Shown here in pieces: positions 36,496-61,190 of a stretch of DNA of 64,000 nucleotides. The DNA is from Bradyrhizobium sp. AZCC 1693 (lineage in GTDB: Bacteria; Pseudomonadota; Alphaproteobacteria; Rhizobiales; Xanthobacteraceae). Positions within the stretch are counted from its first letter, which is position 1. Each line of letters opens with the position of its first letter. The translations under genes and the position numbers were made by a program. Location of the stretch: positions 2,170,001 to 2,234,000 of the forward strand of contig NZ_JAZHSD010000001.1 of the NCBI RefSeq assembly GCF_036924745.1. Reading direction: 5' to 3'. Under the pieces are notes generated by a model that made no database searches, was not told where the DNA came from, and saw only the letters and a program-made list of their open reading frames with translations.

Positions 36496-36513
36496 CGGGA
36501 TCACTGTGCCCAA

Positions 36514-36573
36514 GTGTTAAACAGAATAGGCGTTAAACAGAACGAGTGTTAAACAGAACGGCGTTAGACAGAA
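36514..36573. repeat. Four short tandem repeats between phnD and phnE
   Basis: Four units built on GYGTTARACAGAA begin at 36514, 36530, 36546 and 36561 (periods 16, 16, 15 bp); the last has G for A in one place. They fill the space between the phnD terminator and phnE. On the minus strand the unit reads TTCTGTTTAAC. Purpose unknown. Confidence 0.75.
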
Positions 36574-36599
36574 AAAGGCCGGGTCGCTTGGACCCGGCC
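36572..36599 (-). terminator. Intrinsic terminator after phnD
   Basis: On the minus strand GGCCGGGTC pairs perfectly with GACCCGGCC (9-bp GC-rich stem, 5-base loop) and is followed at once by TTTTT. It lies 22 bp after the phnD stop and before phnE, so it should lower permease expression relative to the binding protein. Confidence 0.82.
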
Positions 36600-41257: not shown

Positions 41258-42439
41258 CTATCTCCGCTGGTTGTAGACGTCGAGGCAGACGGCGCCGAGC
41301 AGCACCAGCCCCTTGATCACCTGCTGGTAGTCGATGCCGATGCCAAGGATGGACATGCCGTTGTTCATGACCCCCATGATCATGGCCCCGATCACCGCGC
41401 CGCCGACCCTGCCGACGCCGCCATAGGCGGACGCGCCGCCGATGAAGCAGGCCGCGATGACGTCGAGCTCGAAGCCGGCTCCCGCCTTCGGCGTCGCGGT
41501 ATTGAGCCGCGCGGCGAAGACGAGGCCGGCCAAAGCCGCCAGCGCGCCCATGTTGACGAAGGTCAGAAACGTCAGCCGCTCGGTCTTGATGCCGGACAGG
41601 CTCGCGGCCCTGGCGTTGCCGCCGATGGCATAGATATGGCGGCCAATCACGGTGCGGGTGGTGACGAAGCCATAGAGCGCGATCAGCGCCGTCATGATCA
41701 CCAGCACGTTGGGCAGGCCGCGATGCGAGGCGATCAGGCCGGCGAAGAACACGATCACGGCGAACAGCACCGCGCTCTTGGCGACGAAGAAGCCGAAGGG
41801 CTCGACCTCGATGCCGTGCGAGGCCTGCCGTGCCCGGCTCTTGGCGCTGGTATAGACAAGGGCCACTGCCAATACGGCACCGATCAACAGCGACGTCGGA
41901 TAGAGCGTGCCGGCGCCGGGAAACAATTCGGGAATGAAGCCCGAGGACAGTTTCTGGAAGGTCGGCGGAAACGGTCCGACCGACTGGCCTGCCAGGATCG
42001 CGAGCGCCAGCCCCTTGAACACCAGCATGCCGGCCAGCGTCACGATAAAGGACGGGATCTTGAAATAAGCCACCCAATAGCCCTGCGCGGCGCCGATCAG
42101 CGCACCAACCAGCAGGCAGGCGAGGAAAGCCAGCGGATAGGCAATGTGATAGCGCACCATCAGCACCGCGGCGACGGCGCCGACGAAGCCCGCGACCGAG
42201 CCCACCGACAGGTCGATATGGCCGGTGACAATGATCAGCAGCATGCCGAGCGCCATGATCACGATGTAGCTGTTCTGCAGCACCAGGTTGGTCAGGTTCA
42301 GCGGCTGCAGCAGCGTGCCGTCGGTCATGACCTGGAAGAACAGCATGATCGCAAACAGCGACAGCAGCATGCCGTAATTGCGCAGATTGTTCTTGATGAA
42401 GCCGGTGTGCCCGGGCAGCGCAACCGCCTTGTCGGTCAT
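41258..42439 (-). CDS. gguB: Sugar ABC permease GguB/MmsB-like
   Basis: 393 residues with ten or so helices of the ribose/xylose permease family: GMLLIIVTGHIDLSVGSVAGFVGA, KIPSFIVTLAGMLVFKGLAL, TVIGRHIYAIGGNARAASLSGI and GAVIGAMIMGVMNNGMSILGI. It is the membrane component of the ChvE-GguAB importer for arabinose, galactose or xylose. It overlaps gguA by 4 bp and ends the leftward sugar unit. Confidence 0.9.
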   Translation of the reverse strand: MTDKAVALPGHTGFIKNNLRNYGMLLSLFAIMLFFQVMTDGTLLQPLNLTNLVLQNSYIVIMALGMLLIIVTGHIDLSVGSVAGFVGAVAAVLMVRYHIAYPLAFLACLLVGALIGAAQGYWVAYFKIPSFIVTLAGMLVFKGLALAILAGQSVGPFPPTFQKLSSGFIPELFPGAGTLYPTSLLIGAVLAVALVYTSAKSRARQASHGIEVEPFGFFVAKSAVLFAVIVFFAGLIASHRGLPNVLVIMTALIALYGFVTTRTVIGRHIYAIGGNARAASLSGIKTERLTFLTFVNMGALAALAGLVFAARLNTATPKAGAGFELDVIAACFIGGASAYGGVGRVGGAVIGAMIMGVMNNGMSILGIGIDYQQVIKGLVLLGAVCLDVYNQRR

Positions 42440-43998
42440 GGCCGCAAATCTCCCTGAAGTACTTTCTTGTCCATTTCCTTGTTGCGCATGATGGCGCGCA
42501 TGATCCTTTCCTGGGTGGCCTCGGCGGCGGCGAATTCTCCGACAAAGGCGCCGTCATTCATCACGCAAATGCGGTCGCAGACCCCGAGCAGCTCCGGCAT
42601 CTCCGACGAGATCATCACCACTCCCTTGCCCGCCTCGGCGAGCTCGTTGATGATACAATAGATTTCGTATTTTGCCCCGACATCGATGCCGCGCGTCGGC
42701 TCGTCGAGGATTAATACTTTCGGATCGGTCATCAGCCATTTCGACAGCACCACCTTCTGCTGGTTGCCGCCGGAGAGCTGACCGGTCTCCTGATAGACAT
42801 CGGAACAGCGGATCCGCATCCGGGTGCGGTAGTCGCTCGCAACGCGCAGCTCGGACATGTCATCGATCATGCCTTTCGGCGCGACGCGGCCGAGGCTTGC
42901 CAGCGTGATGTTCTTGCGGACGTCGCTGTCCAGGATCAGGCCGAGCTGCTTGCGGTCCTCGGTGACGTAAGCGAGGCCGGCGTCGATCGCCGCCGCCACA
43001 TCAGACAGGTTGACTTCCCTGCCATCGAGCCAGATGCGGCCGGTGATCCGATCCCCCCAGGCCCGGCCGAACAGGCTCATGGCGAATTCGGTGCGGCCAG
43101 CGCCCATCAGCCCGGCGATTCCGACCACCTCGCCGCGCCGGACCTCGAAATCGACGCCCTTTATTATCAGGCGTTCCCGGTGTTGTGGGTGGTACACTGT
43201 CCAGTCCTGAACGGCGAAGACCGGTTCGCCGATCGTGGCGGTGCGCTGCGGAAAGCGATGGGCAAGGTCGCGATCGACCATGCTGCGGATGATCCGATCC
43301 TCTTCCACCGGCTCGGCCCGGCAATCGATGCTGTCGACGGTGCGGCCGTCGCGCAGCACCGTGATCCGGTCGGCCACACGGGCAACCTCCGACAATTTGT
43401 GCGAGATCAGGATCGAGGCGATGCCCTGGGCGCGGAACGCAAGCAGACGATCCAGTAGTGCGGCGCTGTCGTTCTCGTTCAGGCTGGCGGTCGGCTCGTC
43501 GAGAATCAATAGTCGCACCCTCTTGGACAAGGCCTTGGCGATTTCCACCAATTGCTGCTTGCCGACGCCAAGGTCCGTCACCAGCGTATCGGGCATCTCG
43601 GTGAGGCCGACCTGGGCGAGCAGTTCCTGGGTCCGGCGGTAGACCGTGTCACGGTCGATCACGCCAAGGCGCGACGGCGGATGCGACAGGAAAATGTTCT
43701 CCGCGATCGACATCAGCGGAATCAGCGCCAGTTCCTGATGAATGATGATGATGCCGAGCGCTTCGGAATCATTGACGTCGCGAAAGCGCCGTTCCTCGCC
43801 GTCGAAGATGATGCTGCCTTCGTAGTCACCATGGGGGTAGACGCCGCTGAGAACCTTCATCAGGGTCGACTTGCCGGCGCCGTTCTCGCCGACCAGCGCA
43901 TGGATCTGCCCGGCCTCCACCGTGAAGTTGACGTCGCGCAGGGCCTGCACGCCGGAAAAACTCTTGCTTACGCCGCGCATTTCGAGAATTGCGGTCAT
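42436..43998 (-). CDS. gguA: Sugar ABC ATPase GguA-like (double ABC domain)
   Basis: 520 residues with two ABC domains. First: GENGAGKSTLMKVLSGVYPHG, signature ending LGVGKQQLVEIAKAL, LLILDEPTASLNE. Second, from about 260: GLMGAGRTEFAMSLFG (degenerate Walker A), LSGGNQQKVVLSKWL, VLILDEPTRGIDVG. This is the architecture of sugar importers of the Rbs/Xyl/Ara class. It works with gguB and the disrupted chvE upstream. Confidence 0.92.
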   Translation of the reverse strand: MTAILEMRGVSKSFSGVQALRDVNFTVEAGQIHALVGENGAGKSTLMKVLSGVYPHGDYEGSIIFDGEERRFRDVNDSEALGIIIIHQELALIPLMSIAENIFLSHPPSRLGVIDRDTVYRRTQELLAQVGLTEMPDTLVTDLGVGKQQLVEIAKALSKRVRLLILDEPTASLNENDSAALLDRLLAFRAQGIASILISHKLSEVARVADRITVLRDGRTVDSIDCRAEPVEEDRIIRSMVDRDLAHRFPQRTATIGEPVFAVQDWTVYHPQHRERLIIKGVDFEVRRGEVVGIAGLMGAGRTEFAMSLFGRAWGDRITGRIWLDGREVNLSDVAAAIDAGLAYVTEDRKQLGLILDSDVRKNITLASLGRVAPKGMIDDMSELRVASDYRTRMRIRCSDVYQETGQLSGGNQQKVVLSKWLMTDPKVLILDEPTRGIDVGAKYEIYCIINELAEAGKGVVMISSEMPELLGVCDRICVMNDGAFVGEFAAAEATQERIMRAIMRNKEMDKKVLQGDLRP

Positions 43999-44088: not shown

Positions 44089-45163
44089 TTAGTCGAACTG
44101 CGAACGCTTGTAGTAGCCGCTGTCGATCAGCACCTTCTCCCAGTTGCTCTTGTCGACGACGACGGGCTTCAGGAGATAGGAAGGTACCACCTTGACGCCG
44201 TTATTGTAGGTCTTGGTGTCGTTGACGGTCACTTCCTTGCCGCTGAGGGCTGCGTCGACCATGTCGGCAGTGACGCGGGCGAGATCGCGGGTATCCTTGA
44301 AGATGGTCGAATACTGTTCGCCGCGCTGCATCGACTTGATCGACGGCACTTCGGCATCCTGCCCGCTGACAACAGGCATCGCCATGTTGCCGCTGCCATA
44401 GCCGACCCCCTTCAACGACGAGAGAATGCCGATGGAGAGCCCGTCATAGGGAGACAGCACCGCATCGACCCGCTTGCGGCCGTAGAACGCGCTCAGCAGG
44501 TTACTCCATGCGTGCCTGGGCGGTGGCGCCGTCCCAGCGCAGGGTCGAGACCTTGTCCATGCCTTTCTGGCCGCTGCCGATCACCAGCTTGCCGTTGTCG
44601 ATATAGGGCTGCAGCACCGACATCGAACCATTGTAGAAGAAGTAGGCGTTGTTATCGTCCGGCGAGCCACCGAACAATTCGACATTGAAGGGCCCCTTGC
44701 CTTCCTTCAGCCCGAGCCCCTGCTCGATCGACTGCGCCTGCAGCACGCCGACCTGGAAATTGTCGAACGTGGCGTAGTAGTCGACATTGGGCGTGTCGCG
44801 GATCAACCGATCATAGGCGATGACCGTGATCCCCTTGGCCTTGGCCTGCTTCAGCACGTCCGACAGCGTGGTGCCGTCGATCGCCGCGATCACCAGCACC
44901 TTGGCGCCCTTGGTCACCATGTTCTCGACCTGCGAGAGCTGGTTCGGAATGTCGTCCTCGGCATATTGCAGGTCAGTGCCGTAGCCGCGCTCCTTCAGGA
45001 TTTTTACAATATTGTTGCCATCGTCGATCCAGCGCGCCGACGATTTGGTCGGCATCGCGATGCCGACGGTTCCCTTGCCCTGGGCGAACGCGCCGGTCAC
45101 CGCCGTCGCGGCCATGGTTGCTGCCAGCGCAAGGACGGACAATGTGGTCTTCAGACTAGTCAT
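44089..45163 (-). pseudogene. chvE: chvE-like sugar-binding protein gene with frameshift
   Basis: The N-terminal 220 residues (signal peptide ending TGAFAQ, then [40 protein letters not shown]) stop at a TAA at 44503-44501 after [11 protein letters not shown]. The rest ([12 protein letters not shown]..., then [15 protein letters not shown]..., ending YYKRSQFD) continues in the next frame down to 44089. One surplus base in the GAGT at 44506-44503 explains it; removing it gives 357 residues, the usual ChvE length. ChvE-type proteins bind galactose, arabinose or other aldoses. It is either a recent lesion or a sequencing error. Confidence 0.88.
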
Positions 45164-45277: not shown

Positions 45278-46236
45278 TCAAGCCGTTGCAAGTTTTACGT
45301 CTGGTTCAGGGCGGCCAGGCGCGGCGACATCGAGCACGAAGGTGCGGCCATGGCCGGGATCGGCGCGTTTCGCTTCCTCGGCCATTCCCTGCCAGGCCGA
45401 GGTAACGAGCAGCCGTGAGAAATCCCGCCCGACAAAGGCAGGGCAGCTCGACTGCCGGGCCGGCACACGCAGGCTGCGCAGATGCTCGCCTTGCGGACTG
45501 TAGACATCAATGCAGCCGCCACCCCAGCGCGCGTTCCAGATCAGCCCGTCGGCATCGACCACCGCGCCGTCGATGCCGCCACCGCCCCGGCGGGTGACCA
45601 GCGCGGCGGGCTCGCCGCGCGGCAGGCCGGTCGCCGCATCGAGGTCGACGCGGAACAGGATGTTCTTACCCGTGTCGGCGAAATAGCCGACAGTCCCGTC
45701 CGGCGAGAAACAGATCGCGTTCGGGATCGTGATGTGGTCGTAGAGGCGCGACAGCTCACCGCGATGCAGCGCATAGATGGCGCCCAGCCCCCGCTCGGCG
45801 CGGCGGCCCATGGTGCCGATCCAGAACGTGCCGGACGGATGAACCCGGGCATCGTTCGAACGCGTTGCGGCATTGTCGGCTTCCAGCGGACAGTACAGCG
45901 TCATCCGCCTATCGGCCGCATCGCGGATATAGAGGCCGTCATCGGCAACGAGGAGGTGGCGAAGCGCGTCGATCCGCCCAAGCGCGCTGCCCATCACGCC
46001 GAGGGAATGGATGGTGATCCGGCCGGTATCAAGCCGCGCCTCGAACAGCCGCCGTTCGACGAATGGATGGTGATCCGGCCGGTATCAAGCCGCGCCTCGA
46101 ACAGCCGCCGTTCGACGATGTCGAACCACCAGGCCGTATCTGTGACGGCGTCGTAGGTCGGCCCCTCGCCAAGATGGCACTGCTCGTCGCAGAGAACGCT
46201 CGTCGGTACCTCTTCCATTGTATGATCGCCGATCAT
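45278..46236 (-). pseudogene. SMP-30/gluconolactonase-family gene disrupted by tandem duplication
   Basis: The start (MIGDHTMEEVPTSVLCDEQCHLGEGPTYDAVTDTAWWFDI...) follows GGAGGGAGCGGGCA and overlaps the galM stop. After about 57 residues, frame is lost because a 56-bp segment (46005-46060 and 46061-46116) is exactly doubled. The remaining 240 codons (ARVHPSGTFWIGTM, SFSPDG-like NAICFSPDGTVGYFADTG, GGIDGAVVDADGLIWNARWGGG) are intact in another frame to 45278. Removing one copy restores a 300-residue protein. SMP-30 lactonases open aldonolactones made by the adjacent dehydrogenase. Confidence 0.92.
46005..46116. repeat. Exact 56-bp tandem duplication
   Basis: The 56 bases at 46005-46060 recur unchanged at 46061-46116, directly adjoining. 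56 is not a multiple of three, so the SMP-30 frame shifts by two. Identity of both copies points to a very recent event or an assembly artefact. Confidence 0.97.
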
Positions 46237-47372
46237 TGCCCGCTCCCTCCAGGCAACTCTACCTCGAATTGTGTCCCGATTGCGCCCTGGATCGCATGCG
46301 TGAAGCGGTACAGCGTGGTGTGGCGATAGACTTCGCCCGGCGAAAGCCGCGCGGTCGGAAAGTCGGGCCGATTGGGTGTATTGGGCCAAGCGTGCGGCTC
46401 GAGGCACATGGCATCGGACTGCCGATAGAGGCGACCGCCCTTTCCGGCGGTAGAGCCGTCGAGAAAGTTTCCGGAATAGACCTGCAGGCCAGGCTGATTG
46501 GTGAACAGCTCGAGCACGCGGCCGGATGCAGGCTCAGCGAGCCGCGCGGCGAAACGAGGCGCGCCGCTGGCCGGGTCGAGACAGAAATTGTGATCATAGC
46601 CGCGGCCCGCGCGCAGTTGCGGATGGTCGTTACGTATCCGCGCGCCGATCTCGACGCCTGCCCGGAAGTCGAACGGCGTATCCGTTACCGCACTGGGCGG
46701 CTGCGGCAGCGGGATCGCGCCGGCATCGATGGCGATAAAATGATCGGCGGCCACGGTAAGGTGATGATCGAGAATACTCCGGCCCGACCGCGCACCGGCC
46801 AGATTGAAAAAGCTGTGATTGGTCAGATTGACCACGGTGGGGCGATCGGTCCGCGCCGTCATGTCGAGCACTAGTTCCATCGGCCCGGCAAGCCGCCAGG
46901 TCACCTCCACCTCCAGCGTGCCGGGATAACCTTCCTCGCCATCGGCGCTGGTGTACGCAAGCGTCACGGCCGGATGAGCGCCATCCTCGATCGCGACAAT
47001 GCGCCAGTTGCGGCGATCGAAGCCCTCCGGCCCGCCATGCAACGCATTGGCGCCGTTATTTGCCACGAGTTGCACGTCAGTGCCGTCGAGCCTGAAGCGC
47101 GCGCCGGCGATGCGGTTGGCGTAACGCCCGACGGTTGCGCCGAAAAACTGGCGGCGGGCGAGATATCCCTCGAACGCGTCATGGCCGAGCACGATGTCGT
47201 CGCGACGTCCGGCAACATCGGGCACCAGCATTGCCTGCAGCGACGCGCCATAGGTCATGATGCGCGCTTCCAGTCCATCGGCGGCGTGCAGCGTAACGCG
47301 TTCGACTTCGGTGCCGTCGGGCAGCAGCCCGAAGGTGGAACACGCGACACGAGGAATGGAAGACACGTGCAT
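46233..47372 (-). CDS. galM: Aldose 1-epimerase (mutarotase)
   Basis: 379 residues. Motifs are GASLQAMLVPD, GRYANRIAGARFRLDG, NNGANALHGGPEGFDRRNW (catalytic His region), NLTNHSFFNLAG and the Glu-bearing CLEPHAWPNTPNRPDFP. It interconverts alpha and beta anomers of galactose or arabinose in the cytoplasm ahead of the dehydrogenase. Its first 118 bp overlap the end of the dehydrogenase frame, while the SMP-30 gene overlaps its stop. Confidence 0.92.
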   Translation of the reverse strand: MHVSSIPRVACSTFGLLPDGTEVERVTLHAADGLEARIMTYGASLQAMLVPDVAGRRDDIVLGHDAFEGYLARRQFFGATVGRYANRIAGARFRLDGTDVQLVANNGANALHGGPEGFDRRNWRIVAIEDGAHPAVTLAYTSADGEEGYPGTLEVEVTWRLAGPMELVLDMTARTDRPTVVNLTNHSFFNLAGARSGRSILDHHLTVAADHFIAIDAGAIPLPQPPSAVTDTPFDFRAGVEIGARIRNDHPQLRAGRGYDHNFCLDPASGAPRFAARLAEPASGRVLELFTNQPGLQVYSGNFLDGSTAGKGGRLYRQSDAMCLEPHAWPNTPNRPDFPTARLSPGEVYRHTTLYRFTHAIQGAIGTQFEVELPGGSGQ

Positions 47373-48301
47373 GTCGCGTCCTCGAAGGGCTCTACCGTGC
47401 GGCGGCGTCCCAGCAGGAACGCGTCGGCAACGAGCTGGAGCGGCGCGAGATCGACGTCGGTCTCCCCGGTTGCGCAGAGCTCGCGGAAGCGGCGATAGAG
47501 CCCGGCATATTCGGCGTCCGGGGCATCGACGAGTTGCTTGCCCCCTGCCCGCAACCTCGCCCCGCCCATGGAAAGCGTGACCGGGCCGCCGTCGGTGTCG
47601 AGATCAATGTCCCAGCTCTGCGGGCCGGTCTGGAGGAAGTCGAATTCGGCCGTGATCTTCAGCCCCTGCGCATCGCTGAGCGCGAGGGTTGCAGCGATCG
47701 GCGCGTCGCGATTGGCGGGGAATGCGAGATCGGCCGACGTCACGAACAATGACTGCGGCAAGATCCACGTCAGGATCGAAAGCGCGTTGATGCCGGGGTC
47801 GAACACGCCGAGCCCGCCTGCCTCGAAGATCCAGGCCTGCCCCGGATGCCAGACCCGCACGTCTTCCTTCCAGGTAATTTTCACAGCCGTGACCTTTCGG
47901 CCGGCCAGCAATTGCCGCGCCGGCTCGACCGCCGGTGCGTACCGCGAGTGCCAGGTGGCGAACAGCGTGCGTTGCGCTGCCCTCGCGGCGGTCACGAGCG
48001 GAGTGATTTCAGCGACCGTCGCGCCGGGCGGTTTTTCCAGCATCACATGCTTGCCGGCGGCAAGCGCCATTGCCGCCTGCGCGTGGCGAACCTGCGGCGG
48101 GGTGCATAGCGCCACCGCGTCGATCGGCGGACCGTCGCGCAACAGTTCATCGAGCGTCGCCGCATGCGGCACGCCGGGAAGCGAGGCATTGCGGCTGGCG
48201 ACGGCAACCAGCTCCACGCCGTCAGTCGCAGCGATCGCCGGCACATGCTGGTCGCGTGCGATCTTGCCGAAGCCGACGATAGCGACGCGAAGCGGGCTCA
48301 T
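47255..48301 (-). CDS. Gfo/Idh/MocA aldose 1-dehydrogenase (galactose/arabinose type), C-terminally extended
   Basis: 348 residues. Rossmann motif is VAIVGFGKIARDQH; the EKPPG motif (VMLEKPPGAT), ATWHSRYAPAVEP, WKEDVRVWHPGQAWIFE and GGLGVFDPGINALSILTWILP closely match the L-arabinose/D-galactose 1-dehydrogenase of Azospirillum (about 309 residues, recalled). Homologous sequence ends near RRRTVEPFED, about 308, but the frame runs 40 more residues to 47255 inside galM. The tail is Cys/Pro-rich and non-homologous in look. Loss of the normal stop is suspected. It oxidises the sugar to its lactone with NAD(P). Confidence 0.85.
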   Translation of the reverse strand: MSPLRVAIVGFGKIARDQHVPAIAATDGVELVAVASRNASLPGVPHAATLDELLRDGPPIDAVALCTPPQVRHAQAAMALAAGKHVMLEKPPGATVAEITPLVTAARAAQRTLFATWHSRYAPAVEPARQLLAGRKVTAVKITWKEDVRVWHPGQAWIFEAGGLGVFDPGINALSILTWILPQSLFVTSADLAFPANRDAPIAATLALSDAQGLKITAEFDFLQTGPQSWDIDLDTDGGPVTLSMGGARLRAGGKQLVDAPDAEYAGLYRRFRELCATGETDVDLAPLQLVADAFLLGRRRTVEPFEDATCTCLPFLVSRVPPSGCCPTAPKSNALRCTPPMDWKRAS

Positions 48302-49077
48302 GATTGCTCTCCAGGCTCGACTGCCGCAGGGGTCGCAGATGCGGCACCGGACGATGCCGGAGCCCCCTCATGACGACGCAATCCATTGTGGATCACCTCG
48401 GCCATGGCGGCGGTCGCCGCCTCAGCATCGCCGCTCTCGATCGCATCGACAATGCGCTGATGCCACAGCAGCACTGTCTCGCGGTCCTGCGTCTCGACCG
48501 GCGCGCTGAGCAGGAACGAGGCGCGTAACGCCGCCTCGATAACGTTGCCGATCGAGCGCATGAACAAATTGCCGGAGGCGTTGGCGACGGCCAGGTGCAG
48601 GGCAAGATCGCCGTCGGCAAAACCAACGGAGTCGGAGGCCTCCGCCCGCATTCGCGCGATGCTCCGGTGCAACTCGGCGATGTCGGCCTCCGAGCGCCGG
48701 CCAGCGGCGAGCGCAGCCGCGCGCGGTTCGACGGCGAGGCGAATCTCGGCGAGATCGTTGAGAAAGCGCCGGTCGATGCCGGCGTCGAGATGCCAGGCCA
48801 GCACATCGGCATCGAACATGTTCCAGGCGCCGCGCTCGCGCACCACGGTGCCAACCCGCGCCTTGGTGGTGAGCAACCCCTTCGCAACCAGGGTCTTGAC
48901 GCTCTCGCGCAACACCGGCCGCGATACGCCGAACATCGCCGTGAGTTCGGCATCGCCCGGCAGACGGCCGCCTTCGGCGTAACGGCCGGCGATGATGTCG
49001 ACGCCGATGCTGCGGGCAACCTCGGCGTGGTTGGAATGCGCGCGCCGCGTCGGGATGACGACAAGCCGGGACGTCAT
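48298..49077 (-). CDS. FadR-type GntR transcriptional regulator
   Basis: 259 residues. The GntR helix-turn-helix lies about 20-85 (HAEVARSIGVDIIAGRYAEGGRLPGDAELTAMFGVSRPVLRESVKTL). An FCD effector domain follows (EIRLAVEPRAAALAAGRR, FADGDLALHLAVANASGNLFMRSI). It overlaps the permease stop and dehydrogenase start by 4 bp each, so it is transcribed within the sugar unit it probably represses. The palindrome at 53818-53836 between ytfQ-like and garD genes is a candidate target. Confidence 0.9.
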   Translation of the reverse strand: MTSRLVVIPTRRAHSNHAEVARSIGVDIIAGRYAEGGRLPGDAELTAMFGVSRPVLRESVKTLVAKGLLTTKARVGTVVRERGAWNMFDADVLAWHLDAGIDRRFLNDLAEIRLAVEPRAAALAAGRRSEADIAELHRSIARMRAEASDSVGFADGDLALHLAVANASGNLFMRSIGNVIEAALRASFLLSAPVETQDRETVLLWHQRIVDAIESGDAEAATAAMAEVIHNGLRRHEGAPASSGAASATPAAVEPGEQS

Positions 49078-50057
49078 GATTTCTGGACTCCTGCCTTACG
49101 GGGGCCGGCGCGGCGGGCGATGCCCAGCATGGCCTGCTGCAGGGCGATGAACGCGAAAAGCAGGATACCGGTCACGATCTTGGTCCACCAGCTCGACAAG
49201 GTTCCATCGAAATTGATGTAGGTCTGGATCAGGCCCTGAATCAACACGCCGAGCAACGTGCCGACCACCGATCCCTGCCCGCCGGTCAGCAAGGTGCCGC
49301 CGATCACCACAGCCGCAATGGAATCGAGTTCGACGCCGACGGCCGACAGCGAGTAGCCCGCCGCGGTGTAGAAGGAGAACACAATGCCGGCGAGCCCGGC
49401 AAGGACGCTCGACAGCATATAGATGCGCACCGTCATCGATCCGACCGGAATGCCCATCAGGGCCGTGGTCGCGCGGCTGCCGCCGAGCGCATAGACGTTG
49501 GCCCCGAAACGGGTGAAATGCAGCAGCACGGCCCCCGCCGCGACCACCGCCAGCATGATGAGGGCGATTGCCGTCAGCCGGCCTCCCCCGGGTAGCCGGA
49601 GCGCGAAATCCGACACGGTCGAATAGAGCGGCGCTGATATCGGCGTTGATTCCGTCGACATCAGGAAGCTGGCGCCGCGGGCGAGGAACATGCCCGCCAG
49701 CGTGACGATGAAGGGCGGCATGTCGAAGAAATGGATGACGGCGCCCATGGCCGCGCCGAAGGCGGCGCACAGCAGCAGGATCGCGGCGAAGGCAACGAGC
49801 GGCGGCACACCAAGACGCTCGATCGCCAGCGCGACGAATACGGTGGTGAAGCCGATCACCGAGCCGACCGACAGGTCGATGCCCCCGGAAATGATCACGA
49901 AGGTCATGCCGGTGGCGACGATGCCGAGAAAGGCGTTGTCGGTCAGCAAATTGGCGGCCACCCGGGTGGAAGCGAAATTGGGAAATTGCACCGTGCAGAG
50001 TGCAAATCCGACGACGAAAACAATGGCCGTGATCGCGACCGGCGGCAGACCCCTCAT
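49074..50057 (-). CDS. yjfF: Sugar ABC permease YjfF-like
   Basis: 327 residues from the ATG at 50057 (4-bp overlap with the upstream permease gene). Helices and motifs are GIVATGMTFVIISGGIDLSVGSVIGFT, MPPFIVTLAGMFLARGASFL, NVYALGGSRATTALMGI and ELDSIAAVVIGGTLLTGGQGSVVG. It resembles YjfF, one of two unequal permeases of the E. coli galactofuranose importer YtfQRT-YjfF. Confidence 0.86.
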   Translation of the reverse strand: MRGLPPVAITAIVFVVGFALCTVQFPNFASTRVAANLLTDNAFLGIVATGMTFVIISGGIDLSVGSVIGFTTVFVALAIERLGVPPLVAFAAILLLCAAFGAAMGAVIHFFDMPPFIVTLAGMFLARGASFLMSTESTPISAPLYSTVSDFALRLPGGGRLTAIALIMLAVVAAGAVLLHFTRFGANVYALGGSRATTALMGIPVGSMTVRIYMLSSVLAGLAGIVFSFYTAAGYSLSAVGVELDSIAAVVIGGTLLTGGQGSVVGTLLGVLIQGLIQTYINFDGTLSSWWTKIVTGILLFAFIALQQAMLGIARRAGPRKAGVQKS

Positions 50058-51052
50058 TGGCGGGCCCTCCCCAGCGCGGCCCCGGCATTGGCAAAGCGCG
50101 GCGACTGCAGCAGCAGGACGACCAGCACGACAGCCGCCTTCACCACGAGATTGAACTCCGGCGGATAGCCCGACAGCAGGATGCCGGTGTTCATGGCCTG
50201 GATGATCAGCGCGCCGACCATCGCCAGCACCAGGCTGAAACGCCCGCCGAACAGCGAGGTGCCGCCGATCACCACCGCCAGAATCGCGTCGAGCTCGAGC
50301 CAGAGCCCGGCATTGTTGGCGTCCGCGCCCATGATATCGGCGGCGGCAATCACGCCGGCGAGCGCCGCGCACAGGCCGCACCAGACATAGACCGCGAGGA
50401 TCATGCCGCGCGTCCCGATCCCGGCCAGTTCACTCGCCCTTGCATTGCCGCCGGTCGCCTCGATCAACAGGCCGAGCGCGGAGCCACGGACCACCGCACC
50501 GGTGACGATCAACATGCCGAGCACGACCACGACCGGCGCCGGCACGCCGAGCAGCGCGCCGTTGCCGAGCCAGACCAGGTCAGGCGCGGTGAAGGTGACG
50601 ATGCGGCCCTCGGTAATGAGCTGCACAACGCCCCGGCCCGCCACCATCAGGATCAAGGTGGCGACGATCGGCTGGATACCGAGTACCGCAACAAGAAAGC
50701 CGTTCCACAGCCCGCATAGCAATCCAGCGCCGAGGGCTGCGGCGAGCGCCAGCGGCAGGCCGTGGGCATCGGCAAGGCTCGCGGCAATGGCGCCTGATAT
50801 CGCCATGACCGCGCCTACCGACAGGTCGATACCCCGCGTGGCGATGACCAGCACCATTCCCAAAGCAAGCAGCGCGACCGGTGCGCCGCGATTCAGGACG
50901 TCGATCAGGCTGCCGAACAGTCGGCCGTCCTGCATCCGCAGATCGAAGAATTGCGGCGAGACGGCGCGGTCGACCGCGAGGATCACCAGCAAGGCGATGA
51001 TCTGGGCAACGCCACGGCTTTGCAGCAGTCTTTGCAGCAGGCTTGGCATCAT
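50054..51052 (-). CDS. ytfT: Sugar ABC permease YtfT-like
   Basis: 332 residues; ALGMVLVIATRGIDLSVGAVMAISGAIAASL, GIQPIVATLILMVAGRGVVQLITEGRIVTF and ATGGNARASELAGIGTRGM match YtfT. It overlaps the ATPase stop by 4 bp and pairs with YjfF-like protein to form the channel. Substrate is probably a furanose form of galactose or a related sugar, judged from its family and the galM/galactose genes nearby. Confidence 0.87.
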   Translation of the reverse strand: MMPSLLQRLLQSRGVAQIIALLVILAVDRAVSPQFFDLRMQDGRLFGSLIDVLNRGAPVALLALGMVLVIATRGIDLSVGAVMAISGAIAASLADAHGLPLALAAALGAGLLCGLWNGFLVAVLGIQPIVATLILMVAGRGVVQLITEGRIVTFTAPDLVWLGNGALLGVPAPVVVVLGMLIVTGAVVRGSALGLLIEATGGNARASELAGIGTRGMILAVYVWCGLCAALAGVIAAADIMGADANNAGLWLELDAILAVVIGGTSLFGGRFSLVLAMVGALIIQAMNTGILLSGYPPEFNLVVKAAVVLVVLLLQSPRFANAGAALGRARQ

Positions 51053-52593
51053 GATGGCCCGGCTTCCGCACCGGCGGTGCTTGCTGCGGCAATTGCCGCA
51101 AGAATATTGGAGACGTCGATGGCCTCCCCTTCCAGCTCATCGATGTGGCTGCGATCGCGCAGCACGATTACCCGGTCGGAATAGGTCACGATCTCGTCGA
51201 GCTCGGAAGAAATCACCAGCAGCGCCAGGCCGTCGTCGCACAATTCGCGGATCAGGCGGATGATCTCGGCGTGGGCGCCGACATCGATGCCACGGGTCGG
51301 TTCGTCGAGCACCAGAACGCGCGGCGCGGTGGCGAGCCAGCGGGCGAGCAGCACCTTCTGCTGGTTGCCGCCGGACAATAGGCCGATCGGGCGCTCCGGC
51401 TCCGGCGGGCGGATGTCGAGCAGCCTGATGAAACGCACGGCGATCTCTTCCTGCTCGGCGCGCGACAGCGGTTTTGCGAGGCCGCGCTTGGCCTGCAGCG
51501 CCAGCACGATGTTTTCGCGCACGGTGAGATCGGCAATGATGCCCTCGGTCTTGCGCTCTTCCGAGCAATAGCCGAAGCCATGCGCGACCGCATCGCGCGG
51601 CGATTGCAGCCGGACCGGCGTGCCTTCAACCGTGGCGCTGCCGCTGTCGGCGCGCTCGGCGCCAAACACCAGCCGCGCGGTTTCGGTGCGCCCCGACCCG
51701 AGCAGGCCGGCGAGGCCAACCACCTCGCCGCGGCGAAGCGCGAGATCGAACGGCGCGACATAGCCGGCCTTGCCGTAATTTTCGAAATGCGCGCAGATCT
51801 CCCCCACCTCCCGCACCTGCGCCGCCGCGCGCTCACTCGTCGTCTCGGCGAGTTCGCGCCCGAGCATCATGCGGATCAACTCGATCCGCGGCAGTTCGGC
51901 GGTCGTCCGCTCGCCGATCAGCCGGCCATTGCGCAAAACCGTGATGCGGTCGCAGATCTCATAGACCTGATCGAGAAAATGCGTGACGAAGACAACGCCG
52001 ATACCGCGCAACGCGAGCTTGCGCATCACCGCGAAAAGAATCTCGACCTCATGGCGATCGAGGCTAGCGGTCGGCTCGTCGAGGATCAGCACCCGCGCCG
52101 ACTGGTCGACGGCGCGCGCGATCGCGGCGATGTGCTGAACCGCGACCGAATAGTTTCCGAGCGACTCGGCGACATCGATATGCAGGTCGAACTCCGCAAG
52201 CAGTTCGGTGGCGCAGCGGCGCATCTCGGCCTCGCGCACCAGACCGAACCGCGTCGGCTGCCTGCCGAGAAAGAGGTTTTGCGCCACCGACAGGTTCTGG
52301 AGCAGATTGACCTCCTGATAGACCGTCGCAATTCCCGCATCGACCGCTGCCTTGGCCGAGCGCGGCGCGACCTCGGCGCCACCGAGCCTGACGATGCCGG
52401 CGTCGCGCGGGAAGACGCCGGTCACCGCCTTGATCAGGGTGGACTTGCCTGCGCCGTTCTCGCCGAGCAGCGCGTGAATTTCGCCGGCCCGCAAGGTGAA
52501 ATCCACCTCCTGCAGGGCGCGCAGCGTGCCGAAGCTTTTGCTCAGGCCGCGCACCTCCAGCAAAGCTGAACCAGGGTCGGAACTTGCATTCAT
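51049..52593 (-). CDS. ytfR: Sugar ABC ATPase YtfR-like (double ABC domain)
   Basis: 514 residues from the ATG at 52593. First domain: GENGAGKSTLIKAVTGVFPRD, VYQEVNLLQNLSVAQNLFLG (typical of YtfR), VLILDEPTASLDRHE. Second: GLLGSGRTETARLVFG (degenerate Walker A), LSGGNQQKVLLARWL, VLVLDEPTRGIDVG. It drives the YtfT/YjfF importer. The longer frame upstream has no domain content. Confidence 0.9.
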   Translation of the reverse strand: MNASSDPGSALLEVRGLSKSFGTLRALQEVDFTLRAGEIHALLGENGAGKSTLIKAVTGVFPRDAGIVRLGGAEVAPRSAKAAVDAGIATVYQEVNLLQNLSVAQNLFLGRQPTRFGLVREAEMRRCATELLAEFDLHIDVAESLGNYSVAVQHIAAIARAVDQSARVLILDEPTASLDRHEVEILFAVMRKLALRGIGVVFVTHFLDQVYEICDRITVLRNGRLIGERTTAELPRIELIRMMLGRELAETTSERAAAQVREVGEICAHFENYGKAGYVAPFDLALRRGEVVGLAGLLGSGRTETARLVFGAERADSGSATVEGTPVRLQSPRDAVAHGFGYCSEERKTEGIIADLTVRENIVLALQAKRGLAKPLSRAEQEEIAVRFIRLLDIRPPEPERPIGLLSGGNQQKVLLARWLATAPRVLVLDEPTRGIDVGAHAEIIRLIRELCDDGLALLVISSELDEIVTYSDRVIVLRDRSHIDELEGEAIDVSNILAAIAAASTAGAEAGPS

Positions 52594-52679
52594 GCCGGCA
52601 TCACTCCTACCGACGTTCGCATCAAGCGCGAACGCCCGGCATGTTCGCCTCATGAGGCGGATTCGTCGAGAAGGCTTTT

Positions 52680-52728: not shown

Positions 52729-53703
52729 TCAGTAGCCGAGGCCCTTCTTGCTGTCGTAGATCTTCTGCGGATCGTCGGCAGCCGTGTAGAGCTTCGATTC
52801 CGTCTGGATCCACTTCGGCGGCACCGTTCCCTTCGCCTTGAAGGCCATGATGGCGTCCAGCGCCGGACCTGCCATGTTCGGCGTCAGCTCCACGGTGGCG
52901 TTGGCCTCGCCGGCCGCGATCGCCTTGAAGATATCGGGCACCGCGTCGATCGACACCGTCAGGACGTCCTTGCCCGGCTTGAGGCCGGCTTCCTTCATCG
53001 CCTGGATCGCACCGACCATCATGTCGTCGTTATGGGCGTAGACGGCGCAGATCGTCTTGCCGCCGCCTTCGGCCTTGATGAAGCTTTCCATCACTTCCTT
53101 GCCCTTGGCGCGGGTGAAATCGCCGGTCTGGCTGCGCACCACCTTGAGATTGGCGTTCTTGGCGACGACGCTGTCAAAACCCTTCTTGCGGTTGGTCGCG
53201 ACGCTCGCGCCGACCGTGCCCTGCAGCTCGACGACATTGCATGCCTTGCCGCCCACCGTCTTCGCCAGCCATTCGCCGGCCACCGCACCTTCGTGCACGC
53301 TGTCCGAGGTGACGGCGGTGAGATAGAGTTCCTTGCCCGACGGATCGATGTCGCGATCGAGCAGCACGACCGGGATCTTGGCTTCCTTGGCCTCCTTCAG
53401 CACCGCATCCCAGCCGCTCGACACGACCGGCGCGAGGAAGATGGCGTCAACGCCTTGCGCGATAAAGGAGCGGATCGCCTTGATCTGGTTCTCCTGCTTC
53501 TGCTGGGCGTCGGCGATCTTGAGCGTGACCTTTCGCTTGGTAGCCTCGGTTTTTGAGACGGAGGTTTCCGCCGCACGCCAGCCGGATTCTGATCCGATCT
53601 GGGAAAAGCCGACGGTCAGTTCGGCAGCAGTTGCGGGAAGCGAAAGGGTGATGGCGACCAGGGCGGTGGCCGCAAGGAGGGCTTTGGAGGTCATGAGGCG
53701 CAT
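52729..53703 (-). CDS. ytfQ: Sugar ABC substrate-binding protein YtfQ-like
   Basis: 324 residues. The signal peptide ends LPATAAELT. The mature part follows YtfQ: VGFSQIGSESGWRAAETSVSK, DAQQKQENQIKAIRSFIAQGVDAIFLAPVV, VVLLDRDIDPSG, VYAHNDDMMVGAIQAMKEAG and MAGPALDA. YtfQ of E. coli binds galactofuranose in the periplasm. It is the first gene of a leftward run of eleven same-strand genes reaching 41258. Confidence 0.9.
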   Translation of the reverse strand: MRLMTSKALLAATALVAITLSLPATAAELTVGFSQIGSESGWRAAETSVSKTEATKRKVTLKIADAQQKQENQIKAIRSFIAQGVDAIFLAPVVSSGWDAVLKEAKEAKIPVVLLDRDIDPSGKELYLTAVTSDSVHEGAVAGEWLAKTVGGKACNVVELQGTVGASVATNRKKGFDSVVAKNANLKVVRSQTGDFTRAKGKEVMESFIKAEGGGKTICAVYAHNDDMMVGAIQAMKEAGLKPGKDVLTVSIDAVPDIFKAIAAGEANATVELTPNMAGPALDAIMAFKAKGTVPPKWIQTESKLYTAADDPQKIYDSKKGLGY

Positions 53704-53836: not shown

Positions 53837-54021
53837 TTGGGCTCCAGCCGATGACCCTCACCAGCCAGGATTTGCGTCCCGTGCGGACTAGACGGCGAAC
53901 TCACATCCGCCGGCTTGTTGGCGGAAGGCCGCTTGATTGCATGCGCGGTTTGACCTTGATTGCCTCGATCAGGCGGCGCAGCTACGCGTTGCCTGATGCC
54001 GCCCGTGAACAAGGATTCGAC

Positions 54022-55557
54022 ATGCAGCCCGTCACCGCGAACCCGCTCTACATCCGCATGCACGCGGACGATAACGTCGCAATCGTCGCGAACCACGGCG
54101 GTCTGCACCCGGGCGCCGAATTCGCGTGCGGCTTGCGGCTGGTCGAGCAGATTCCGCAAGGCCACAAGGTTGCCCTCGCCGATATCGGCGAAGGCGAAGT
54201 CATTCGCCGCTACGGCGAGGTCATCGGCCGCGCCGCAGCGCCGATATCTAAGGGCAGTTGGGTCAAGGAATCGCTGGTACAGATGCCCGACGCACCCTCG
54301 TTCGACAATCTGCCGACGCCGAACGGCGGCGCGATCAGGCTGCCGCCGCTGGAAGGCTACACGTTCGAAGGTTTTCGCAATGCCGACGGTTCGGTCGGCA
54401 CCCGCAACATCCTCGCGATCTCGACCAGCGTGCAATGCGTCGCCGGCACGGTCGAGTTCGCGCTCGACCGGATTCGCAAGGAGCTGTTGCCGAAATATCC
54501 CAATGTCGACGACGTAGTGGCGATCACGCATGCCTATGGCTGCGGGGTCGCGATCAACGCGCCGGGCGCCGCCGTCCCGATCCGCACGCTGCAGAACCTC
54601 GCCCGCAATCCCAATTTTGGCGGCGAGGTGATGATCGTTGGCCTCGGCTGCGAGAAGCTGCAGCCCGAGCTGTTGCTGCCCGAGGGCATGAACGCCGACG
54701 ACGAAATCATGCGCATGCAGGACGAAGGCCTCACCGGTTTCGGCGAGATCGTCGAGGACATCGTGCAGATGGCCGATGCGCGTCTCAAGATCTTGAACCG
54801 GCGCCAGCGCGAAACCTGCCCGGCGTCGGCGCTGGTGGTCGGCATGCAATGCGGCGGCAGCGATGCGTTCTCGGGCGTGACCGCCAATCCGGCGCTGGGT
54901 TTTGCCGCCGATCTCCTGGTGCGCGCCGGCGCGACCGTGATGTTCTCCGAGGTCACCGAAGTGCGCGACGCCATCCACCTGCTGACGCCGCGCGCGACGA
55001 ACCAGGATGTTGCGGACGCCCTGGTGCGCGAGATGGCCTGGTATGACCGCTATCTCGCCGGCGGCGAAGCCGATCGCAGCGCCAACACCACGCCGGGCAA
55101 CAAGAAGGGCGGCCTGTCCAACATCGTCGAGAAGGCGATGGGTTCCGTCATCAAGTCCGGCACCAGCCCGATCGCGGGCGTGCTCGCGCCGGGTGAGCGG
55201 GTAAGCCAAAAAGGGCTGATTTTTGCGGCAACGCCGGCCAGCGATTTTGTCTGCGGCACGCTGCAATTGGCCTCCGGCATGACGCTGCACGTCTTCACCA
55301 CCGGCCGCGGCACGCCCTACGGGCTTGCTGCCGTGCCGGTCATCAAGGTCTCGACGCGCAGCGAGTTGAAGCAACGCTGGCACGATCTGATCGACGTCGA
55401 CGCCGGCAGCATCGCAACCGGCGAAGCGACGATCGAAGACGTGGGCTGGGAACTCTTCCGTCTCATGCTTGACGTGGCGAGCGGCCGCGAGACCTGGGCC
55501 GAACACTGGAAGCTGACCAACGCGCTTGCGCTGTTCAATCCGGGCCCGGTGACATAG
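54022..55557 (+). CDS. garD: Galactarate dehydratase
   Basis: 511 residues from the ATG at 54022, chosen because AAGGA precedes it and homologous sequence starts there. A SAF-like N-terminal domain ([17 protein letters not shown]) leads into the UxaA/GarD catalytic part: [56 protein letters not shown] and [17 protein letters not shown]. These match E. coli GarD closely. It dehydrates galactarate to 5-keto-4-deoxyglucarate, needs Fe(II), and is cytoplasmic. Divergence from the ytfQ-like operon suggests joint control. Confidence 0.93.
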
Positions 55558-59849: not shown

Positions 59850-61190
59850 CTATCGCTTGGTCGCGCGCTCGAGAAATTGCACGAGCGCGGCGCGATCCTG
59901 CTCCGAACCGATGCGCTGCTCCGGCATCTTGGTGCCGGGCGTATAGGCCTGCGGCCCGATCTCGAACAGTTTGGAAACCGTCTCCGGCGTCCAGACGATA
60001 TCGAGCCGCTTGAGTGCTTCGGAAAAATTATAGCCCGGCGCGGTTGCAATCCGGCGGCCGAAGAGGCCGGCGAGCGTAGGCCCTGCGCGGTTGGCCTGAT
60101 CGGCGCCAAGCGTATGGCACGCGACACAGGCGCGGAAGATCTCCGCGCCATGATCGCCGGCATAGGCGGCGAGCGGGTCCCCTGCCGTCTCCAGCAGAAT
60201 TGGATCGATCGGCTCACCCGTCGCCACGTTCCAGCGCCGGATGATGTTGTCGGCGCCGCCGGTCAGCAACGTGCGGCTATCGGGCATAAAGGCCACCGAC
60301 CAGACCGGCAGCCCGGGGCCGACCAGCGTGCGCGCCAGATTGCGCGCCTTGCGATCGATGACGCCCACCGACCCGCCGATGCTCGCGGCGGCGACCTGCG
60401 CGCCATCAGGCGAGATCGCAATCGAGATCACGGGCCTCGGCCCGGCCGCGACCTCGCCGGTCCGCGCGCCCTCGACTGTCAGAAAGTAAACCTTGCCGTC
60501 CGCACCGCCGACCGCGATCTCACCGTCGGTGCCGGCGGCCACGGCGTTGAGCGGGGTCGGCATCGGAACCACGGTTGGCGTTTGGGCGCCTGACAGTGGC
60601 CAGATTCGAACGCTCAGGTCGTAGCTAACGCTGACCAGGGCGCGACCATCGGCGGTAAACGCCACACCGTTGACGTTCTGCGTATGCTCGTCAAGCACGC
60701 GCGGCGCGCGGCCAGCGAGCGGCCAGAGTCGCACCGTGCGGTCCCAGGAGGCGGATGCGAGCGTAGCGCCATTGGGGGAAGCCGCCAGCGCGACGATCGG
60801 CGCCGTGTGACCCTCCAGTACCTTGTCGGGCTCTGCCTTGCCAAAAGTCCAGATCGCGATACGCCCATCGGCACCGGCGGTCGCCGCGCGTCCGTCAGCG
60901 AGCAGCACGACCGCATTGACGGCATCGGAATGGAAACGAAGCACCTGCTCGGCCGCATTGCGCGTCAGCGACCAGCGGATCGCGGTCGAATCGAAGCTGC
61001 CGGAGATCGCGATTTGCCCATCGGCCGAGACCGCCAGCGCCCGCACCGGCCCGCCGTGCCCTCGCAACTGCGCGCTGGCCTCCGTCACGCCGATCGGCAG
61101 CGCCATCAACGCGGCCGCCAGCGTCAGAAGCGCCGATCGGCCTCTGCTGGAGCGCGGAGCTTTCGCCGAAACCGATCGTGCCATTCCCAT
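59850..61190 (-). CDS. WD40-repeat and cytochrome c fusion protein
   Basis: 446 residues. A signal peptide (ending TEASAQLRG) precedes about seven WD40 repeats (GHGGPVRALAVSADGQIAISGSFDSTAIRWSL, and others) over residues 42-325. A cytochrome c domain follows, with heme motif CVACH (355-359), GPTLAGLFGR and axial Met about 422 in TKMPEQ. It is periplasmic; the propeller may dock a partner while the heme moves electrons. It ends the formate dehydrogenase operon, so an electron-transfer link to that enzyme is plausible. Confidence 0.85.
   Translation of the reverse strand: MGMARSVSAKAPRSSRGRSALLTLAAALMALPIGVTEASAQLRGHGGPVRALAVSADGQIAISGSFDSTAIRWSLTRNAAEQVLRFHSDAVNAVVLLADGRAATAGADGRIAIWTFGKAEPDKVLEGHTAPIVALAASPNGATLASASWDRTVRLWPLAGRAPRVLDEHTQNVNGVAFTADGRALVSVSYDLSVRIWPLSGAQTPTVVPMPTPLNAVAAGTDGEIAVGGADGKVYFLTVEGARTGEVAAGPRPVISIAISPDGAQVAAASIGGSVGVIDRKARNLARTLVGPGLPVWSVAFMPDSRTLLTGGADNIIRRWNVATGEPIDPILLETAGDPLAAYAGDHGAEIFRACVACHTLGADQANRAGPTLAGLFGRRIATAPGYNFSEALKRLDIVWTPETVSKLFEIGPQAYTPGTKMPEQRIGSEQDRAALVQFLERATKR

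Follow-up and report, generated by a model that had tools for sequence, protein, structure and literature searches.

An SMP-30/gluconolactonase (SGL) lactonase gene in Bradyrhizobium sp. AZCC 1693 contains two adjoining copies of a 56-base unit and is now read in two frames of 80 and 239 residues, which raises the question of whether the duplication is a reversible switch, a recent ordinary mutation, an error of assembly, or the origin of an enzyme built from two chains. The copies had been described as identical in a preliminary description of the window (the whole stretch of 64,000 nucleotides analyzed here), and this was confirmed by Tandem Repeats Finder (46005-46118, period 56, 100% matches, score 228), by a repeat-pair search (46005-46060 versus 46061-46116, identity 100%), and by a search with the 56-base unit allowing up to 3 mismatches, which found exactly two sites in the window against 0.00 expected from 100 shuffles. 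The features of the minus-strand lactonase gene are as follows.

46005..46060, no strand assigned: duplication copy A, the gene-sense downstream copy of the exact 56-base tandem pair
46061..46116, no strand assigned: duplication copy B, the gene-sense upstream copy of the pair
46117..46118, no strand assigned: microhomology of 2 bases, GA on the plus strand, the sole extension of the repeat beyond two full units
45994..46236, minus strand: lactonase N-terminal frame, with 59 native residues (including the LGEGP motif and E24) and 21 out-of-frame residues, followed by TGA
45278..45997, minus strand: lactonase C-terminal frame, 239 amino acids, covering Pfam SGL positions 44-245 of 246
45992..45997, minus strand: GTGATG, in which the N-frame stop TGA overlaps the possible C-frame starts GTG and ATG

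The C-terminal frame scores 179.6 bits against PF08450 (positions 44-245 of 246), and the N-terminal frame alone scores 23.1 bits over positions 1-41, which is below the cut-off of 26.3. E24 lies on the N-terminal frame and N154 and D204 lie on the C-terminal frame, so that not all three are found on one chain; these residues, which we take to be the metal-binding residues of the SMP-30/SGL lactonases, are invariant across 22 aligned intact relatives. By sequence, the closest solved structure for the family is 2ghs (AGR_C_1268p), and 7plb and regucalcin were also found. The intact database relative P0005, a protein of 300 amino acids, matches 2ghs over residues 14-295 with 340 bits, whereas the gene in the window is split after residue 59. 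Among the best 120 of 3405 matches, the nearest proteins are 93% identical to the lactonase and 300 amino acids long, in a database that is clustered at 90% and may hide a same-species copy.

The gene was compared with 82 relatives' loci, comprising the 80 best named loci (77 of them labelled Bradyrhizobium) and those of the genomes G019 and G031. The lactonase is one open frame with no stops in 82/82 loci, and the duplication is absent from all of them. In 80 of the 82 loci, the N part and the C part start 183 bases apart; in the other two the distances are 186 and 198 bases, both in frame. The spacing in the window is 239 bases, exactly 56 more than in the 80 loci, in agreement with the earlier claim that the duplication breaks the lactonase frame. 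The intact length of 300 residues given in the same description also agrees with the 298-300 residues of the 16 best-ranked named relatives, for which the start codon was chosen by a script. Sequence resembling the duplication unit (at least 38/56 bases identical) occurs once in 36 and is absent from 46 of the 82 loci, and it never occurs twice. The 15-mer that spans the junction between the copies is present in 6 of 265 genus genomes, the window genome included, and in the 4 of the 5 other genomes that were inspected it lies in unrelated places, where the sequence spanning the junction agrees at only 13-18 of 56 bases. Exact tandem duplications with a period between 20 and 400 are rare: the 56-base pair is the one array in the 64-kb window, and none was detected in a further 18 stretches of 20 kb from the window genome, in G019 or G031 (20 kb each), or across 849,768 bases from the 80 relatives' loci. 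In the protein database, three 238-residue relatives (P0017, P0033, and P0071) start exactly at the internal MGSAL (MGSALG); they were considered as similar split genes and set aside, since their longest listed contigs are 1052-1493 bases and cut contigs are equally likely.

The lactonase lies in a run of minus-strand genes in the order, from high to low coordinates, ytfQ, ytfR, ytfT, yjfF, a GntR/FCD regulator, a Gfo/Idh/MocA dehydrogenase, galM, lactonase, chvE, gguA, and gguB, which, because of the shared strand and gene overlaps, probably form a single operon.

52729..53703, minus strand: ytfQ, galactofuranose-binding protein, open frame
51049..52653, minus strand: ytfR-like ATPase, open frame
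50054..51052, minus strand: ytfT-like permease, open frame
49074..50057, minus strand: yjfF-like galactofuranose permease, open frame, with a start inferred from the overlap with the preceding gene
48298..49077, minus strand: GntR/FCD regulator, open frame
47255..48301, minus strand: Gfo/Idh/MocA sugar dehydrogenase (gal), lacking the stop of its near relatives (codon ~311, at the galM start) and running to 348 amino acids
46233..47372, minus strand: galM, aldose 1-epimerase, open frame, with a stop that overlaps the lactonase start as ATGA
44501..45163, minus strand: chvE N part, 220 amino acids, terminated by TAA at one extra base
44089..44502, minus strand: chvE C part, in a different frame from the N part
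42436..43998, minus strand: gguA, multiple-sugar transporter ATPase, open frame
41258..42439, minus strand: gguB, multiple-sugar transporter permease, open frame

The gene names and an adjoining galactarate/altronate dehydratase (53851-55557) suggest that the sugar handled by these genes is galactofuranose or galactose. In comparison with the ChvE-GguAB and YtfQRT-YjfF transporters, the GguA, GguB, YtfQ, and YjfF proteins of the window pass the NCBIfam cut-offs, whereas YtfR (802.6 versus 850 bits) and YtfT (469.2 versus 535 bits) fall below them and ChvE is spread over two frames. Consensus scans gave 1 promoter against 1.4 expected, which is at chance level, and 10 terminator-like sites where 6.4 +- 3.0 were expected. 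The part of the literature that the search reached contained no report of this locus.

The gene directly downstream of the lactonase, chvE, carries an independent 1-base frameshift, in which one extra base leads to the TAA. Of the 76 relatives' loci with a chvE match, 75 keep the gene in a single open frame and one, a MAG locus (L042), has a stop; 6 loci have no match. The two pieces match the ChvE profile NF040907 in separate frames with 330.8 and 207.6 bits, neither of which reaches the cut-off of 460, and the only other matches of this profile in the genome score 44 and 23 bits. The genome has seven other strong SGL matches, whose identity to the lactonase C-terminal frame is no more than 23-29%, and two weak ones. 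As the other SGL matches are distant and there is no other good ChvE match, neither the lactonase nor chvE has a close spare copy. In a plasmid collection, 7 records match the window, all of them at chvE only.

The missing stop of the Gfo/Idh/MocA gene was considered as a third break in the operon and was dropped, as run-on ends also occur among relatives. In 18 near relatives' loci (L032-L047, L112, and L113) the stop is at the same codon in 17 and two codons earlier in 1. Of the 82 loci examined, 80 have a gal match, and in 13 of these the frame extends at least 40 codons beyond the aligned end, so that run-on is tolerated in the genus.

The extent of such damage around the locus was estimated from 119 ORFs in 140 kb of G019, the closest relative found, of which 94 have an orthologue in the window genome and 13 of these were flagged. 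Clear internal frame breaks among the 13 are those of chvE and the lactonase; one more gene possibly has such a break, and the other 10 appear to be upstream extensions, non-coding frames, or diverged ends, as judged by stop positions and best frames. In the reverse comparison, 92 orthologues were obtained for 179 ORFs and 11 were flagged, the gal run-on among them. The gene with a possible break in the first comparison lies outside the window, at G000:C1:2261478-2262472 of the window genome; its product shares 97.6% identity with the G019 orthologue across residues 33-328, and its first 30 residues are in another frame, which possibly reflects a further break or a different start.

These counts bear on whether the duplication exists in the living strain at all. 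A one-copy gene could have been rendered as two copies by an untrimmed 56-base overlap between assembled pieces or by a consensus error, and the perfect identity of the copies and the rarity of such duplications in the genome sample fit an untrimmed overlap. The genome, however, is a single 7.6 Mb contig that is 99.97% complete, and the lactonase DNA has no other genomic copy beyond one weak 36-base match, so that it is not a repeat of the kind at which contigs usually end. The chvE frameshift would need an error of its own, whereas none of the other 11 flagged orthologues has a clear internal break and only one has a possible one. The breakpoint also has a microhomology and a hairpin, as is frequent in real slippage. 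Both breaks are present in the assembled sequence, and we regard assembly error as an unlikely explanation and a minor rival.

The duplication had also been described as a fresh mutation, and the comparisons bear this out. There are 0 differences between the two 56-base copies, and the pooled synonymous distance to G019 over the compared genes is 0.26; under an assumed neutral clock, 0 differences in 56 bases place the duplication, with 95% confidence, within about the last 0.21 of the time since the split from G019. Against G019, the dN/dS values are 0.15 and 0.12 in the two pieces of the lactonase, 0.05 and 0.03 in those of chvE, and 0.01-0.14 in the other operon genes. For the same pieces in the intact pair G019-G031, they are 0.09 and 0.13 for the lactonase and 0.03 and 0.04 for chvE. 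The halves of the lactonase thus remain near the values of intact genes, with the C piece against G031, at 0.20, a little above the 0.13 of G019-G031. Since no clear relaxation is seen in dN/dS, selection probably held until recently.

The position of the break allows one further reading, in which the gene is split at a blade boundary, translation restarts at GTGATG, and the first blade, made separately, joins the others to form a functional propeller. Native residues 1-59 are retained in the N part, and the C part starts at residue 62 or 63, so that the two frames together lack no more than residues 60-61 (60-62 with the ATG as start), and the TGA of the first overlaps both possible starts of the second. 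In an AlphaFold2 model of the intact relative L032 (mean pLDDT 91.8), strands 54-59 and 64-69 are joined by a loop, and the break lies within it. Strands 23-29, 34-39, 44-49, and 54-59, which precede it in the model, would make up the first blade by our count. The break at a blade end and the retention of nearly all residues make a two-chain enzyme conceivable, and, if real, it would be a direct route to a split enzyme and a snapshot of a propeller that a single slippage event has divided between two blades. Against this, the N part carries the 21-residue out-of-frame end, no strong ribosome-binding site was seen upstream of the restart by inspection of the sequence, GTG-ATG are ordinary V-M codons in near relatives also, and the mutation is too young for selection on the split form to show. 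With such a tail, no clear ribosome-binding site, and so young a mutation, a working two-chain lactonase is very unlikely.

We conclude that the split lactonase is probably the result of one recent replication-slippage event in a sugar operon that had become dispensable, and not an evolved switch. Slippage is the most likely origin of the duplication, and a single event during replication would have doubled the 56 bases, shifted the frame, and split the gene. The breakpoint lies within the loop of a short hairpin.

46110..46126, no strand assigned: inverted repeat with perfect 7-bp arms and a 3-base loop, with the duplication breakpoint inside the loop

The polymerase may have paused at this 7-bp hairpin, and the new strand may then have re-annealed 56 bases back through the 2-base match. 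The chance that one of two breakpoints falls in such a loop is 0.3% for a 3-base loop and 1.6% for loops of 3-8 bases, for a coincidence that was spotted post hoc. The DNA around the breakpoint folds only mildly better than shuffled sequences, with z-scores of -0.6 to -2.1 in four foldings. In the available part of PMC4134008, slippage on hairpin templates is reported in vitro for archaeal polymerases.

The operon may have been dispensable to the lineage or to the laboratory culture, which would explain how two of its genes could break. The lactonase and chvE breaks are most likely ordinary mutations in an operon that is being lost, a reading of the sequence that rests on two breaks, few for a claim of decay, with the remaining operon genes open. 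On this reading, the locus is a clean and roughly datable case of how a catabolic operon may begin to decay, with two adjacent genes broken by two kinds of mutation and little other decay.

The preliminary description had gone further and called the duplication in effect a switch. In a phase-variable switch, one-copy and two-copy forms would interconvert and the population would toggle sugar oxidation. Published cases give this idea some ground. In the available part of PMC4169377, tandem duplications that arose de novo within a beta-lactamase gene are reported to revert at measurable rates of 3.6e-5 and 9.3e-7. Like the duplication in the window, they are exact and arise in coding sequence, some with short direct repeats at their borders; they differ in being in frame and selected for a new activity, with reversion observed, whereas the lactonase has lost its frame. 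Pneumococcal capsule genes are reported to phase-vary by such duplications (Waite et al. 2001, 2003, as cited in the available parts of PMC4022640 and PMC4243769), and the lactonase likewise has an exact tandem duplication that throws a coding sequence out of frame. In the capsule genes, however, phase variation is reported in culture, whereas the lactonase duplication is known from a single genome, lies in a metabolic operon, and has another, unrelated break beside it.

Because published in-gene duplications revert, reversion of the lactonase duplication to one copy is plausible, and, the two copies being identical, exact deletion of one would be physically possible at a low rate, as a by-product of the mutation. 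A switch is a stronger claim, and it is not supported. The duplication occurs only in the window genome among those compared, no repeat is present at the site in the relatives, and the junction is not at this gene in the other genomes examined. Nor is there a simple-repeat contingency tract of many short units, as the window has two 56-base copies only and each of the 82 relatives' loci has at most one unit-like sequence. The gene chvE, broken by a single extra base, would stay broken, so that a return to one copy would not restore the binding protein of the transporter. A lactonase is also an improbable switch point, because sugar lactones open without an enzyme too. A phase-variable switch is therefore very unlikely, and the case advises caution, in that an exact tandem duplication should not be called a switch before relatives and neighboring genes have been checked.

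Two further features of the window were observed apart from the operon. A short array of GTTAAACAGAA-like units, with a period of 16 and 3.8 copies, is located at 36513-36574, just downstream of a phosphonate-binding protein gene. At 59850-61190, on the minus strand, a gene encodes a WD40-repeat protein that carries a cytochrome c domain at its C terminus.
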